Program-made: the position numbers and the translations under genes
Shown: one piece after another, positions 26,220-31,543 of the stretch
Numbering within the stretch: the stretch's first letter is position 1
Layout of the letters: each line of letters starts with the position of its first letter
Notes under the pieces: generated by a model
The model's database searches: none
Seen by the model: only the letters and a program-made list of their open reading frames with translations
What the model was told of the DNA's origin: nothing
From: Chaetoceros tenuissimus
Taxonomy: Eukaryota; Bacillariophyta; Thalassiosirophyceae; Chaetocerotales; Chaetocerotaceae
Assembly (NCBI GenBank): GCA_021927905.1
Contig: BLLK01000047.1
Location: forward strand, 930,001-994,000
DNA: 64,000 nt
Direction: 5' to 3'

Positions 26220-26293
26220 GGAATTGAAAAATTCCTGTTGTGTTTGTGGAAAGAAGAAAGAGACACATTGCTGCCTCTCTTCCAACTCTCTCT
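26219..26293 (-). repeat. 75-bp block shared by H3 and H2A 3' regions, copy 1
   Basis: Identical to 30311-30385 except one base. It lies 42 bases past the H3 stop codon and includes the histone stem-loop at its far end. Confidence 0.9.
26220..26235 (-). promoter_or_regulatory. Histone-type 3' stem-loop (H3)
   Basis: In mRNA sense GGAATT-TTTC-AATTCC: six perfect base pairs and a 4-base loop, 100 nt past the H3 stop. Size, loop and closing U-A pair match the replication-dependent histone 3' stem-loop; the lower stem differs from the animal consensus. Confidence 0.75.
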
Positions 26294-26334
26294 TGTTTAG
26301 TCCTAGTCTATGCTAAGCATACACCAAAATCTAT

Positions 26335-26745
26335 TTAAGAACGCTCTCCACGGATACGACGTGCGAGCTGAATATCCTTAGGCATGATGGTTACACGCTT
26401 AGCATGGATAGCACACAAGTTGGTATCCTCGAAAAGTCCAACAAGGTATGCCTCAGCAGCCTCTTGAAGAGCAAGAACAGCAGATCCCTGGAAACGAAGA
26501 TCAGTCTTGAAGTCCTGAGCGATCTCACGAACAAGACGCTGGAATGGCAACTTGCGGATAAGAAGGTCAGTGGACTTTTGGTAACGACGGATCTCACGAA
26601 GAGCTACAGTTCCTGGGCGGTATCTGTGTGGCTTCTTTACTCCTCCAGTTGCTGGAGCAGACTTACGTGCTGCCTTGGTTGCGAGCTGCTTACGTGGAGC
26701 CTTTCCTCCAGTAGATTTACGTGCGGTTTGCTTGGTACGAGCCAT
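26335..26745 (-). CDS. H3: Histone H3, 136 aa
   Basis: Complete core histone: ARTKQTARKSTGGKAPRKQL, HRYRPGTVALREIRRYQKS and RVTIMPKDIQLARRIRGERS. Ala31 and the SAV(L) loop (positions 87-90) point to a replication-coupled form rather than the H3.3 type (AAIG). It is divergent from H4 across 380 bases and intronless with strong codon bias. It carries a histone-type 3' hairpin, so S-phase expression without ordinary poly(A) signals is plausible. Confidence 0.98.
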   Translation of the reverse strand: MARTKQTARKSTGGKAPRKQLATKAARKSAPATGGVKKPHRYRPGTVALREIRRYQKSTDLLIRKLPFQRLVREIAQDFKTDLRFQGSAVLALQEAAEAYLVGLFEDTNLCAIHAKRVTIMPKDIQLARRIRGERS

Positions 26746-27125
26746 TGTGTTTGATTCGAATTCAATTAGAATTTGTGTGATGAGTGAAAAGGAGAGAGAA
26801 GGAAGTTGTTGCTGTTGATGAAGAGAGCCGAGGAGAAGCTGGCGGCTGAAATTTTGTTTCTACGTGAATATTCACGTAGGAGGGGGATCAAAACGTGGCG
26901 CATGGCTTGTTTCACCCCATTTTTGTGTTTTTGCGCCATTTTTCAAATATTTTCTACGTAGATCTCCATAGTATTCTACGTATCAGTACAGTTTGTCTGT
27001 AGAGGCTACGCACGAGAACGAAGCTAGGCGAGAAACGAACTGAAAGTGAGAAGAAGCCAACCGCCAGAAGATACCATAAATTGCTCCAGTAGCTTTTCGA
27101 AAACACAACTCAACAACTAATCAAA
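26746..27125. promoter_or_regulatory. Divergent H3/H4 promoter
   Basis: 380 bases. A perfect 20-bp palindrome, CTACGTGAATATTCACGTAG, lies at 26860-26879. Two more CTACGTA boxes lie near 26954 and 26976. TTCACCCC (26911) and TTTTTGCGCC (26928-26937, E2F-like) are also present. CACGTAG, TTCACCCC and GCGCC boxes recur in the H2A/H2B promoter, which suggests common cell-cycle control (inference). Confidence 0.7.
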
Positions 27126-27437
27126 ATGTCAGGAAGAGGCAAAGGAGGAAAAGGACTTGGAAAGGGAGGAGCTAAGCGTCATCGTAAGGTTCTTCGCGAC
27201 AATATCCAGGGAATTACCAAGCCAGCTATCCGCCGTCTTGCTAGACGTGGTGGAGTAAAGCGTATCTCTGGACTCATCTACGAGGAGACCCGTGGAGTAC
27301 TCAAGGTATTCCTTGAGAACGTTATCCGTGACTCTGTTACCTACACTGAGCACGCTCGTCGTAAGACCGTAGTTGCTATGGATGTAGTATACGCTCTCAA
27401 GAGACAGGGAAAGACCCTTTACGGTTTCGGAGGTTAA
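27126..27437 (+). CDS. H4: Histone H4, 103 aa
   Basis: Complete H4 ([20 protein letters not shown] ... [17 protein letters not shown]). Length and sequence are canonical. Intronless; codon use matches the other histones. A 3' stem-loop lies 110 nt downstream. Confidence 0.98.
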
Positions 27438-27546
27438 GCATCTCTTTAGAGGTGCTATGTTCTGTCTTCAGCTTTGATCTGGACTGTATAAAGTACAATC
27501 TAGGGCAAAGGTTTAGGATAGACAACACACAAAAACATACACAACA

Positions 27547-27562
27547 GGAATTTTTAAGTTCC
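27547..27562 (+). promoter_or_regulatory. Histone-type 3' stem-loop (H4)
   Basis: GGAATT-TTTA-AGTTCC: six pairs including one U-G wobble, loop TTTA. It is preceded by ACACAACA as in H3 and H2A and followed by CGC. It lies 110 nt past the stop. Confidence 0.72.
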
Positions 27563-28263
27563 GCTCTATCACATAGACCAGTTGCTCTGATTCAATCTAT
27601 TTTTCTAAATTTTTACACAGCGAGAATGAAGATTAGATATTGAAGTTCTACGACGCTGCAAAGTCTGATAGGACCTTTTGCAAACAAATGCAAAATATGA
27701 GATAATGAGAAAATATATGATCAAGTTCATCTTCTCCAAAATGTATCTATTGATGAGAGTCTGTGTTTCAAAATCAACAAAAGGATTTGCTTATAGATAA
27801 ATGGTCTAATTCCTCCCATTCTTGGACGAAAGGGTTGTGCGAAAGTCTCATCTTTTTAGTTGGAGCCTGTTGTATTAGATAGTAGTTGCAGTGATATGAT
27901 GCTAGCTAGATCATCTCTAAAGATGTGGTTGGTTTAGAGATTTCAGATCTTCGCAAATGCAAAACATTTTTTGACATTTTCCATAAACCCTGTCGACCCG
28001 TGATTTCCCGGAACCCCTGCCTCTTTGCACTTTCACTCATTTTTCAATGGCTGTCAAAGCCCGAAAGGAGATTACCTCATGATGACGTAGCTTAGTCCCA
28101 TCTTCTTTGCAACGTGTTTTGCATCTTCAACAGAGATTCTCTGTTTTCTTCATGAATTTTCATTTTTGTTCATTCAATATCAATCCATCTTCCATATGCT
28201 GGAAGTTCTTTCATCATAAACTGAACAATTAGCCTCCAATAATATCTAGATTCAAATCAGGAA
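27563..28263. other. Intergenic region between H4 and the transporter
   Basis: No frame with coding support. It ends in the transporter leader; nothing repetitive was seen. Confidence 0.4.
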
Positions 28264-30093: not shown

Positions 30094-30310
30094 ATAAGTT
30101 GAGTCTTTTGATTGAAAATTTTTGGCACCTTAATAGATAATGATAGAAACAATTTCAATTATGGAGTTTATGTCTTTCATGAAGAATTCGTTTGGGTCCT
30201 AAATTGAATTAAAAATTTCTATCTCAGAAGACAAGAGATCTTCGTCTCGTCTTCATGGATTAAAAAAAGAAGAATCGTCAGGATCAACTGAAATCTCTGT
30301 TTGTGTGAAA

Positions 30311-30385
30311 CGGAATTGAAAAATTCCTGTTGTGTTTGTGGAAAGAAGAAAGAGACACATTGCTGCTTCTCTTCCAACTCTCTCT
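30311..30385 (-). repeat. 75-bp block shared by H3 and H2A 3' regions, copy 2
   Basis: Matches 26219-26293 at 74 of 75 positions. It lies 46 bases past the H2A stop. Confidence 0.9.
30312..30327 (-). promoter_or_regulatory. Histone-type 3' stem-loop (H2A)
   Basis: Same GGAATT-TTTC-AATTCC hairpin as H3, 105 nt past the H2A stop. Confidence 0.75.
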
Positions 30386-30431
30386 CTATATATTGTGTTT
30401 ATGTGATATTTACTATCCAAATATTCACTGC

Positions 30432-30800
30432 TTACTTGGAGCTCTTCTTTGGAAGAAGAACAGCGTGAATGTTTGGAAGAACTCCTCCAGCAGCAATAGT
30501 TACTCCTCCAAGAAGCTTGTTCAACTCCTCATCGTTCTTCACAGCAAGGGTAATGTGTCTTGGCACAATACGGCTCTTCTTGTTGTCACGAGCAGCGTTT
30601 CCTGCAAGCTCAAGGATCTCAGCACAAAGGTACTCAAGAACAGCTGCAAGGTATACTGGAGCTCCTCCTCCAATACGGGTTCCGTACTTTCCTTGACGAA
30701 GGTAACGTCCGATACGTCCCACTGGGAACTGAAGTCCTGCCTTTGCAGAAGATGAGGTGGATTTCTTCTCTCCACGGCCTCCCTTTCCTTTTCCTGACAT
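30432..30800 (-). CDS. H2A: Histone H2A, 122 aa
   Basis: Canonical H2A fold: GLQFPVGRIGRYLRQGKY, AEILELAGNAARDNKKSRI and GVTIAAGGVLPNIHAVLLPK. The tail ends KKSSK with no SQ[E/D] motif, so this is not the H2A.X form, and it lacks H2A.Z signatures. Divergent from H2B, intronless. Confidence 0.97.
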   Translation of the reverse strand: MSGKGKGGRGEKKSTSSSAKAGLQFPVGRIGRYLRQGKYGTRIGGGAPVYLAAVLEYLCAEILELAGNAARDNKKSRIVPRHITLAVKNDEELNKLLGGVTIAAGGVLPNIHAVLLPKKSSK

Positions 30801-31093
30801 GATTGATTAGTTGGTGATCTTGTTAGAACGACTTTGCGTTTTATTATGAAGGAAGGGAAGAAGTTTCAATTTTTTGTTTCGTTTTGAAAGTTGGCGCCTC
30901 ATCCGCGCCGCTTTTGGATGCTCCGTAGAAACTCACGTAGAAATTCTTTCCATTTCGCGCCGGGGGCTCAATTATTTTTCACCCCCTCCCTTTTGGCGCC
31001 TGTTTGAAACAAAATTTGAAACGAACCTCTGTTTCTTCTCCATTCTTATGTTCTCACAATCTCAATAGATTCAAAACTATAACTACTTTCAAA
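30801..31093. promoter_or_regulatory. Divergent H2A/H2B promoter
   Basis: 293 bases with GGCGCC at 30893-30898, TTTCGCGCC near 30953 and TTTTGGCGCC at 30991-31000 (E2F-like). CCGTAGAAACTCACGTAGAA lies at about 30923-30942 and TTCACCCC at 30979. It shares the CACGTAG, TTCACCCC and GCGCC boxes with the H3/H4 promoter. Confidence 0.7.
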
Positions 31094-31447
31094 ATGGCAA
31101 AGACCCCATCCAAGAAGAGTGCTAAGGCACCAAAGAAGGCAGCTACTGGAAAAAAGAGATCCAAGAAGCGTGTTGAATCCTACTCCTCCTACATCTACAA
31201 GGTATTGAAGCAGGTACACCCAGATACTGGAATCTCCAAGAAGGGTATGTCCATCATGAACTCCTTCATCAACGATATCTTTGAGCGTATCGCTACTGAG
31301 GCAGGAAAGCTTACTACCTACAACAAGAAGGCAACTCTTTCTTCCCGCGAGATCCAGACCGCTGTTCGTCTTATGCTTCCAGGAGAGCTTGCTAAGCACG
31401 CTGTTTCCGAGGGAACCAAGGCAGTAACCAAGTTCTCTTCTGCTTAA
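31094..31447 (+). CDS. H2B: Histone H2B, 117 aa
   Basis: Start at ATG 31094 (MAKTPSKKSAKAPKK); the upstream in-frame extension to 31004 is leader. The core ESYSSYIYKVLKQVHPDTGI ... AVRLMLPGELAKHAVSEGTK is canonical, with the ubiquitin-acceptor context AVTKFSSA at the end. Intronless. Confidence 0.97.
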   Translation: MAKTPSKKSAKAPKKAATGKKRSKKRVESYSSYIYKVLKQVHPDTGISKKGMSIMNSFINDIFERIATEAGKLTTYNKKATLSSREIQTAVRLMLPGELAKHAVSEGTKAVTKFSSA

Positions 31448-31527
31448 GTCATGTATATACATTATATCAAAAAATATTATTGTTAGTATCTTGTCATTTA
31501 GTTGAGAGGATGCTATCATAACCATCA

Positions 31528-31543
31528 GGATTTTTTCAAATCC
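31528..31543 (+). promoter_or_regulatory. Histone-type 3' stem-loop (H2B)
   Basis: GGATTT-TTTC-AAATCC, 81 nt past the stop. Relative to H3/H2A the fourth pair is swapped (A-T to T-A) with pairing kept. It is preceded by CA and followed by GCTC like the others. Confidence 0.75.

Follow-up and report, generated by a model that had tools for sequence, protein, structure and literature searches.

In animals, the 3′ stem-loop of replication-dependent histone mRNAs has U as the first and third bases of its loop and pyrimidine-purine at stem pairs 3–5, between a 5′ flank of CCAAA and a 3′ flank of ACCCA. SLBP reads the second G of the stem and U1 and U3 of the loop. In the animal complex an arginine reads a stem guanine, as described in excerpts of PMC10388802. 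Excerpts of two further papers state that most such histone mRNAs lack poly(A) in C. elegans (PMC1924863), and that Chlamydomonas has non-polyadenylated bulk histone mRNAs together with a few polyadenylated "non-replication" copies (PMC8226298). Histone stem-loops have been reported from Perkinsus marinus (PMC6723414, in the part available), and protozoa are known to have both stem-loops and SLBP homologues (PMC12819152, in the part available, citing Davila Lopez & Samuelsson 2008). No title or abstract on a diatom histone stem-loop was found among the matches listed in the open-licence literature, and the available parts of PMC12775136 and PMC3145265 contain nothing on diatom hairpins.

The window, which is the whole 64,000-nucleotide stretch of Chaetoceros tenuissimus DNA analysed here, contains one divergent H3–H4 pair and one divergent H2A–H2B pair, with a hairpin past the stop of each gene:

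26220–26235, minus strand: H3 3′ stem-loop GGAATT-TTTC-AATTCC, starting 100 nt past the stop, CA before and G after
26335–26745, minus strand: canonical histone H3 coding sequence, 136 aa
26857–26879, no strand assigned: promoter element TTTCTACGTGAATATTCACGTAG shared by the divergent pair H3–H4, lying between the two genes
27126–27437, plus strand: histone H4 coding sequence, 103 aa
27547–27562, plus strand: H4 3′ stem-loop GGAATT-TTTA-AGTTCC with one U-G wobble, 110 nt past the stop, CA before and G after
30312–30327, minus strand: H2A 3′ stem-loop GGAATT-TTTC-AATTCC, 105 nt past the stop, CA before and G after
30432–30800, minus strand: canonical histone H2A coding sequence, 122 aa
30934–30940, no strand assigned: promoter motif CACGTAG, lying between the two genes of the divergent pair H2A–H2B
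31094–31447, plus strand: histone H2B coding sequence, 117 aa
31528–31543, plus strand: H2B 3′ stem-loop GGATTT-TTTC-AAATCC, 81 nt past the stop, CA before and G after

The initial annotation had placed the four 16-nt hairpins, their distances from the stop codons and their CA and G flanks as listed, and all four are confirmed. Its consensus, CAGGAWTTTTYAAWTCCG, is one T short; the true unit is CA, the 16 nucleotides and G. As written, this consensus gave 24 matches with up to two mismatches, five of them H2A hairpins shifted by one base, and no exact copy. The 16-mer pattern of the same annotation, with up to two mismatches, matches the window at 6 places against 2.8 expected, and at least 6 matches arose in 5 of 100 shuffles. 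The H3 and H2A copies of the window are not independent, being 97.5% identical over 80 nt of 3′ UTR. Taken by themselves the window matches are unimpressive, and the case rests on the genome-wide set. For one protein of the window the nearest homologue bearing a name is from Chaetoceros debilis, at 37%, and closer homologues stand at 87% and 85%.

Throughout the 41 Mb genome, 25 of 26 canonical core histone genes have the hairpin behind them (H3 6/6, H2A 6/6, H2B 6/6, H4 7/8). The H3 hairpin of the window recurs in identical sequence behind all six canonical H3 genes, and the clustered, intron-bearing H1 genes have a hairpin in 4/4. Every one of the 29 copies is in sense orientation, 47–147 nt past the stop. 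Beyond the window the set includes the H1 copies, G-C variants of pairs 3–5, UCUA, UUUU and UAUU loops, and genes without a hairpin. The UCUA-loop hairpins came to light when the flanks of 19 of the 37 loci were read; scans that require T at fixed loop places miss them.

The hairpin was also sought behind non-histone genes. The earlier 16-mer pattern matches the 41 Mb exactly at 19 places, of which 15 are behind histone genes and fully paired; the four non-histone matches form only 4 or 5 of the 6 pairs. A wider pattern, with pairs 4–5 free and pair 3 purine/pyrimidine, yields 32 genome matches. The 29 that belong to core and H1 genes are fully paired without exception, and in the remaining three 4 or 5 of the 6 pairs form. 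The fully paired matches of these patterns are confined to histone genes.

The hairpin is absent from the histones that we take, by their sequence features, for replacement and variant forms. None of the 11 other histone-fold (PF00125) matches has any of seven hairpin sequences within 300 nt, a count in which inner-exon matches lack a known true stop, and the wider genome-wide pattern has no match near these loci. In a looser scan, 4 of the 11 are followed by chance hairpins that do not have the GG...CC base. One H4 copy (L060) is likewise without a hairpin.

The 16-nt geometry, a 6-bp stem and a 4-nt U-N-U-N loop, is constant in 29/29 copies, together with the GG/CC base, the U-A closing pair and loop U1 and U3; the second stem G is invariant. 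Stem pairs 3–5 vary on both sides. Among 17 distinct rows there are 13 double-sided changes with 100% of the stem cells paired; every row has A-U or G-C at pair 3, and pairs 4 and 5 are mixed. The covariation score is 0.412 against 0.123 when shuffled, and 0 of 500 shuffles scored as high; for two of the five covariation measures, 19 and 10 of the 500 shuffles reached the observed value. The suggestion that pairing rather than sequence is kept, first drawn from the swapped pair of H2B and the wobble of H4, was upheld on 16 and 17 distinct rows. Because many copies are recent duplicates, the 25 core copies amounting to 8 combinations of gene type and hairpin, we judge the independent covariation events to be only about 5–7. 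The 5′ flank ends in ACA, CCA, TCA or ACT and is mostly CACAACA, and the 3′ flank is G followed by pyrimidines. The core-histone stems are weak, at −4.5 to −8.4 kcal/mol.

A search of the genome for an SLBP homologue, proposed with the initial annotation, was positive. A single SLBP gene matches PF15247 with 82 bits in one exon and 87 bits as the spliced protein (cut-off 27). It matches PDB chain 4l8r_C with E 4.6e-12, and 41 homologues were found, some of them named from diatoms. The guanine-reading arginine of animal SLBP aligns with an arginine of the diatom protein, at what we take to be the Arg181 position.

With a high degree of confidence we regard the hairpin as the SLBP-bound 3′ stem-loop of replication-dependent histone mRNAs, carried by the canonical H1, H2A, H2B, H3 and H4 genes. 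The initial annotation had read it as a histone 3′ stem-loop with altered stem and flank, and the 25 of 26 core genes, the SLBP gene and the covariation support that reading. Seeing that the hairpin is near-universal on these genes and that an SLBP relative is encoded, the histone messages very probably end in the hairpin as they do in animals. The 6-bp hairpin with its U-N-U-N loop would be bound in bulk histone transcripts by the genome's own SLBP, and the pre-mRNA would be cut just 3′ of it. The cut would supply the mRNA end in place of a poly(A) tail, and through the hairpin-ended mRNA the supply of histones would be coupled to DNA replication in S phase.

Other explanations can be weighed against this evidence. 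The hairpin might be a passenger of recent histone gene duplication or conversion, owing its retention to common descent instead of selection. The near-identity of the window H3 and H2A 3′ UTRs fits such a history, as do the many copies that are nearly identical past the hairpin. The downstream flanks nevertheless fall into 9 families across which the 29 copies keep their geometry, basal pairs, closing pair and loop uridines; H1, H2B and H4 types have differing stems that all pair; and the hairpin is missing from the variants and from one H4 copy. We find this explanation very unlikely. It is improbable in the extreme that the palindrome works at the DNA level, whether as a transcription terminator or as a binding site. 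GGAATT....AATTCC does form an inverted repeat in the DNA as well, and of nine hairpin types folded, 6 were more stable as the antisense strand, 2 differed between the strands by no more than 0.1 kcal/mol and 1 was weaker as antisense. Against a DNA function, the loop letters and the CA/CT...G flank keep one orientation to the gene in 29/29, the U-G wobble of the window H4 pairs in the sense RNA only, the position past the stop is narrowly bounded, and SLBP is present.

SLBP could also bind the hairpin of mRNAs that are polyadenylated downstream, with the element governing translation or stability and not the 3′ end. Neither a U7 snRNA nor a secured downstream element was found, which agrees with this possibility, although the RF00066 (U7 snRNA) search returned 0 matches in the control as well as in the genome. 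AATAAA lies within 400 nt past the stop in 7 of the 25 hairpin-bearing core genes, and in 3 of these (L013, L017, L059) it precedes the hairpin. The other 18 have no AATAAA in that range, a count to be read with the reservation that diatom poly(A) signals may differ, and the C. elegans and Chlamydomonas messages cited above are mostly without poly(A), to judge from the excerpts. We hold downstream polyadenylation to be unlikely, and prefer the SLBP-bound stem-loop as the end of the message.

CAGAGA starts at the 10th or 13th base past the stem in 12 of the 25 core copies, representing 4 of the 9 flank families. In a permutation with one sequence per flank family (the nine families having been sorted by eye) and mononucleotide shuffles, it was A/T words, and not CAGAGA, that were shared most widely among the 6-mers and 7-mers (p for such sharing 0.006 and 0.0025, respectively). 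For that reason we do not put CAGAGA forward as a downstream element and keep it as a lead. In the search for U7, a TCTCTG plus Sm-like-site pattern has 15 matches, against 1 in the reversed control, and we base no U7 claim on them. Upstream, TTTCTACGTGAATATTCACGTAG occurs with at most one mismatch at 6 places, every one between a divergent H3–H4 pair.

We tentatively suggest that diatoms possess a replication-histone regulon, a wider proposal that is possible rather than probable. In it all five canonical histones, the intron-containing H1 included, would share an SLBP hairpin whose stem follows a code of its own (pair 3 purine-pyrimidine, no ACCCA). A different downstream signal, for which CAGAGA 10–13 nt past the hairpin is the candidate, would be served by a guide that is U7-like or U7-free. 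The promoters of the SLBP gene and of most core genes with a hairpin would have an element CTACGTG/CACGTAG in common, which the hairpin-less H4 would lack.

The divergence from the animal element is also seen with the Rfam model RF00032 (Histone3). At its gathering cut-off (34 bits) the window has no match, and no scanned copy reached the cut-off. A permissive scan placed RF00032 at one of the four window hairpins (H2B, 18.6 bits, E 0.25), where two unrelated families outrank it in the window, and at 3 hairpins in 7 further loci (18.6–19.8 bits); E values were 0.25–1 overall. Contigs of bacterial and archaeal genomes hold 12 H3-like loci, taken for contaminant eukaryote DNA, of which 10 were scanned and the partial matches L103 and L104 omitted. 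Four of the ten (L093, L094, L096, L098) have a histone-like hairpin. They served as positive controls only, none being recognisably diatom, and the model passed in three of the four (L093, L094, L096) at 34.2–38.9 bits. It coincides with the H3 hairpin in L096 alone, the L093 and L094 matches lying elsewhere, just past histone or H1 frames. The hairpin of the unplaced H3 locus L098, GGTGTT-TTTC-AACACC, has no RF00032 match; we guess this locus to be green algal. In viral contigs there was no relative of H4 or H2B and no match to the hairpin pattern, and H3 had one 42% match (L105).

Diatoms are far from animals and green algae, and a histone system of hairpin and SLBP in them therefore supports an ancient origin. 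The diatom stem indicates how far drift can go while the SLBP-read features, the second G and loop U1 and U3, stay in place, and the hairpin with its SLBP gives a clean natural setting in which to test RNA-protein co-evolution. If the mRNAs are without poly(A), diatom histones would be misjudged in RNA-seq after poly(A) selection and in cDNA primed with oligo-dT; in Phaeodactylum, histone H4 has served as the reference gene for qPCR (PMC4247016, in the part available).

The diatom element resembles metazoan RF00032 in having a stem of 6 bp and a loop of 4 nt, G-C as its two basal pairs, U-A as the closing pair, and loop U1 and U3. The systems are also alike in that the hairpin sits on canonical histones, is absent from the variants found, and is accompanied by SLBP in the genome. 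Unlike the metazoan element, it has purine-pyrimidine (A-U or G-C) where animals have pyrimidine-purine at stem pair 3, and CACAACA, mostly, and G plus pyrimidines where animals have CCAAA and ACCCA. The differences named in the initial annotation, at pair 3 and in the lack of ACCCA, are correct as far as tested. The diatom H1 carriers differ further in having an intron. The lone hairpin-less H4 may be comparable to the polyadenylated copies of Chlamydomonas, and with Chlamydomonas the diatom shares the arrangement of divergent H3–H4 and H2A–H2B pairs.

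Canonical core histone genes of the species carry the hairpin almost without exception. The window corresponds to C34:930001-994000 of a 41.03-Mb assembly. This assembly gave at least 29 matches to PF00125 and at least eight to an H4 protein query, and the hairpin, initially annotated behind the four core genes of the window, is present behind 25 of 26 canonical core genes (H3 6/6, H2A 6/6, H2B 6/6, H4 7/8), starting 73–147 nt past the stop codon. The sole gene without it is L060, whose H4 protein is identical to the other copies. The hairpin is absent behind all 11 remaining PF00125 matches, which we take from their sequence features to be two H3 variants apparently with introns, another H3 variant, a cenH3-like protein, an H2A.Z-like protein, an H2A ending in SQDY and five other histone-fold proteins; a looser scan finds chance hairpins without GG...CC downstream of four of the 11.

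In the window, the genes form two divergent pairs, H3-H4 and H2A-H2B, and the four hairpins lie where the initial annotation placed them, at the same distances from the stop codons. Its consensus string was short by one T; the actual unit is CA, the 6-4-6 hairpin and G. Between the pairs (window 28264–30093) lies a gene resembling a transporter, by eye of the major facilitator kind and apparently with an intron. At window 39431–42231 (minus strand), two neighbouring ORFs (618 and 284 aa) have their first ~270 residues in common, which points to a partial tandem duplication; the 618-aa ORF has a ThiF/MOCS3-type look by eye.

Specificity was tested with three exact genome-wide patterns, each with a reversed control. 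The 16-mer derived from the window alone has 19 matches, 15 at histone genes and all paired, and four elsewhere with only 4 or 5 of 6 pairs; its reversed control has none. The pattern summarising the 25 core copies, partly circular as it was built from them, matches precisely those 25 genes (reversed control 0). The third was written after the H1 copies were known. It holds constant GG/CC, the closing U-A pair, U at loop positions 1 and 3 and the flanking CA/CT...G; pair 3 was restricted only to purine/pyrimidine and pairs 4–5 were unconstrained. It has 32 matches, 29 at histone genes (10 distinct 19-mers) and three elsewhere (reversed control 3). All 29 are fully paired and the three others have 4 or 5 of 6 pairs, so that pairing, beyond the fixed letters alone, divides histone from non-histone sites. 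Fully paired matches of the three patterns are thus confined to histone genes.

The covariation claimed for the window extends to the genome. The 16 distinct core rows are 100% paired with 9 double-sided cells (0/500 shuffles), while the number of pairs with a double change is reached by 32/500 shuffles and that of further pair types by 47/500. With H1 included, the 17 rows remain 100% paired with 13 double-sided cells and score 0.412 versus 0.123 shuffled, equalled by 0/500; the other two counts are reached by 19/500 and 10/500. When the partner column is shifted by one to three positions, the score drops to 0.037–0.154 and pairing to at most 64%. Stem pairs 1, 2 and 6 are invariant, hence uninformative. 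Independence is limited, because the core copies form 8 gene-type/hairpin combinations, to which H1 adds two hairpins, and the window H3 and H2A have an 80-nt block in common at 97.5% identity. We judge the independent compensatory events to number about 5–7.

A rival reading has the palindrome acting in DNA instead of RNA, and the antisense fold is the more stable in 6 of 9 hairpin types and within 0.1 kcal/mol in two. However, all 29 copies lie on the sense strand, each with a U-N-U-N loop flanked by CA/CT...G, and the window H4 hairpin with its U-G wobble forms six pairs in the sense fold and loses pairs in the antisense. Action in DNA is very improbable, and we treat the hairpin as an RNA element.

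Linker histone H1 has eight PF00538 matches, four of them within histone clusters (L106, L107, L014 and L016). All four clustered genes have an intron, with exons drawn by us, and an open exon 2 terminating in KKTKK-stop. Each is followed by GGAGCT-TTTC-AGCTCC or GGAGCT-TATT-AGCTCC, at 47, 47, 69 and 76 nt past the inferred stop. No match of the genome-wide hairpin patterns lies near the other four. Animal replication-dependent histone genes are intronless, whereas the clustered H1 genes combine intron and hairpin.

A candidate partner protein, the SLBP homologue that the initial annotation suggested seeking, is encoded by a single gene:

C21:838302-838505, minus strand: the one SLBP-domain gene found, scoring 82 bits (cut-off 27)

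A spliced reading, its intron placed by us, scores 87 bits and matches SLBP chain 4l8r_C (4.6e-12), as well as 4tv0, 4tux and 4tuw, presumably human and fly SLBP structures; both scores come from a reading with one additional arginine at the splice joint. The corrected reading finds 41 homologues, including proteins of Nitzschia inconspicua, Thalassiosira exigua, Fistulifera solaris and Attheya, of which nine were aligned. In the animal complex an arginine reads a guanine of the stem (PMC10388802). Located by counting from the TP motif, this arginine (presumably position 181) is kept here and is lysine in 3/9 (P0027, P0031, P0041). The residue preceding the GKNT motif, which we take to be the Tyr144 position, is lysine here. 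An acidic C-terminal end (DSDDDLL or similar) is common to this protein and the nine homologues.

A promoter motif, noticed first and counted afterwards, accompanies the hairpin:

Window 26857-26879 and 30934-30940: CTACGTG/CACGTAG promoter motif

CTACGT or its complement occurs within 350 nt upstream of 25/25 hairpin-bearing core genes and the longer CTACGTG/CACGTAG upstream of 22/25, counts in which genes are not independent since divergent pairs have common upstream DNA. In the two variants counted (H3 variant L010, H2A variant L026) the 350 nt ahead of the matched domain contain no CTACGT on either strand, nor do the 350 nt upstream of the hairpin-less H4 L060 (C17:635536-635844). L060, which thus lacks hairpin and shared motif and has AATAAA 210 nt downstream, is by its sequence a candidate replication-independent, polyadenylated H4. 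The longer motif reaches 3.74/kb in 26 upstream regions including that of L060, versus 0.03/kb in 48 background loci, and one copy lies in the 350 nt that precede the start of the SLBP gene; the motif may be an S-phase element. Its long palindromic form, at up to two mismatches, has 11 matches, 10 at six places between H3/H4 genes and one elsewhere (reversed control 6). TTTSGCGC, which we take to be E2F-like, occurs at 1.1/kb upstream of histone genes, with every such site in an H2A-H2B pair (in the window, intergenic at about 30840–31090), versus 0.03/kb in the 48 background loci. CAGAGA lies 10–18 nt downstream of the hairpin in 12/25 core genes, at a similar offset across H2A, H2B, H3 and H4; it is possibly a counterpart of the histone downstream element, though not one that is statistically secured.

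RF00032, the Rfam histone 3′ stem-loop family, has no match in the window at its gathering score. A permissive scan there gives 18.6 bits (E 0.25) at the H2B hairpin, ranked third after two unrelated families, with the H3, H4 and H2A hairpins unlisted. Across seven further loci, 19.8, 19.1 and 18.6 bits (E 0.35–1) fall on the hairpins in L016, L107 and L014, the single better-scoring row being a snoRNA family (E 3). The family passes in 3 of 4 positive control loci (34.2–38.9 bits). The scores below gathering place the element outside the curated family limits and make this a weak resemblance in score terms. It is suggestive that the top RF00032 matches coincide exactly with the hairpins. Taken strictly, the element departs from the animal form in its stem pairs and flanks, as had been proposed; functionally it most likely acts as the animal histone stem-loop does. 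According to PMC6723414 and PMC12819152, some protozoa possess a hairpin/SLBP system, so the kind is already known; new, as far as the open-licence literature searched can tell, are the details of the form found in this diatom and its specificity for one set of genes.
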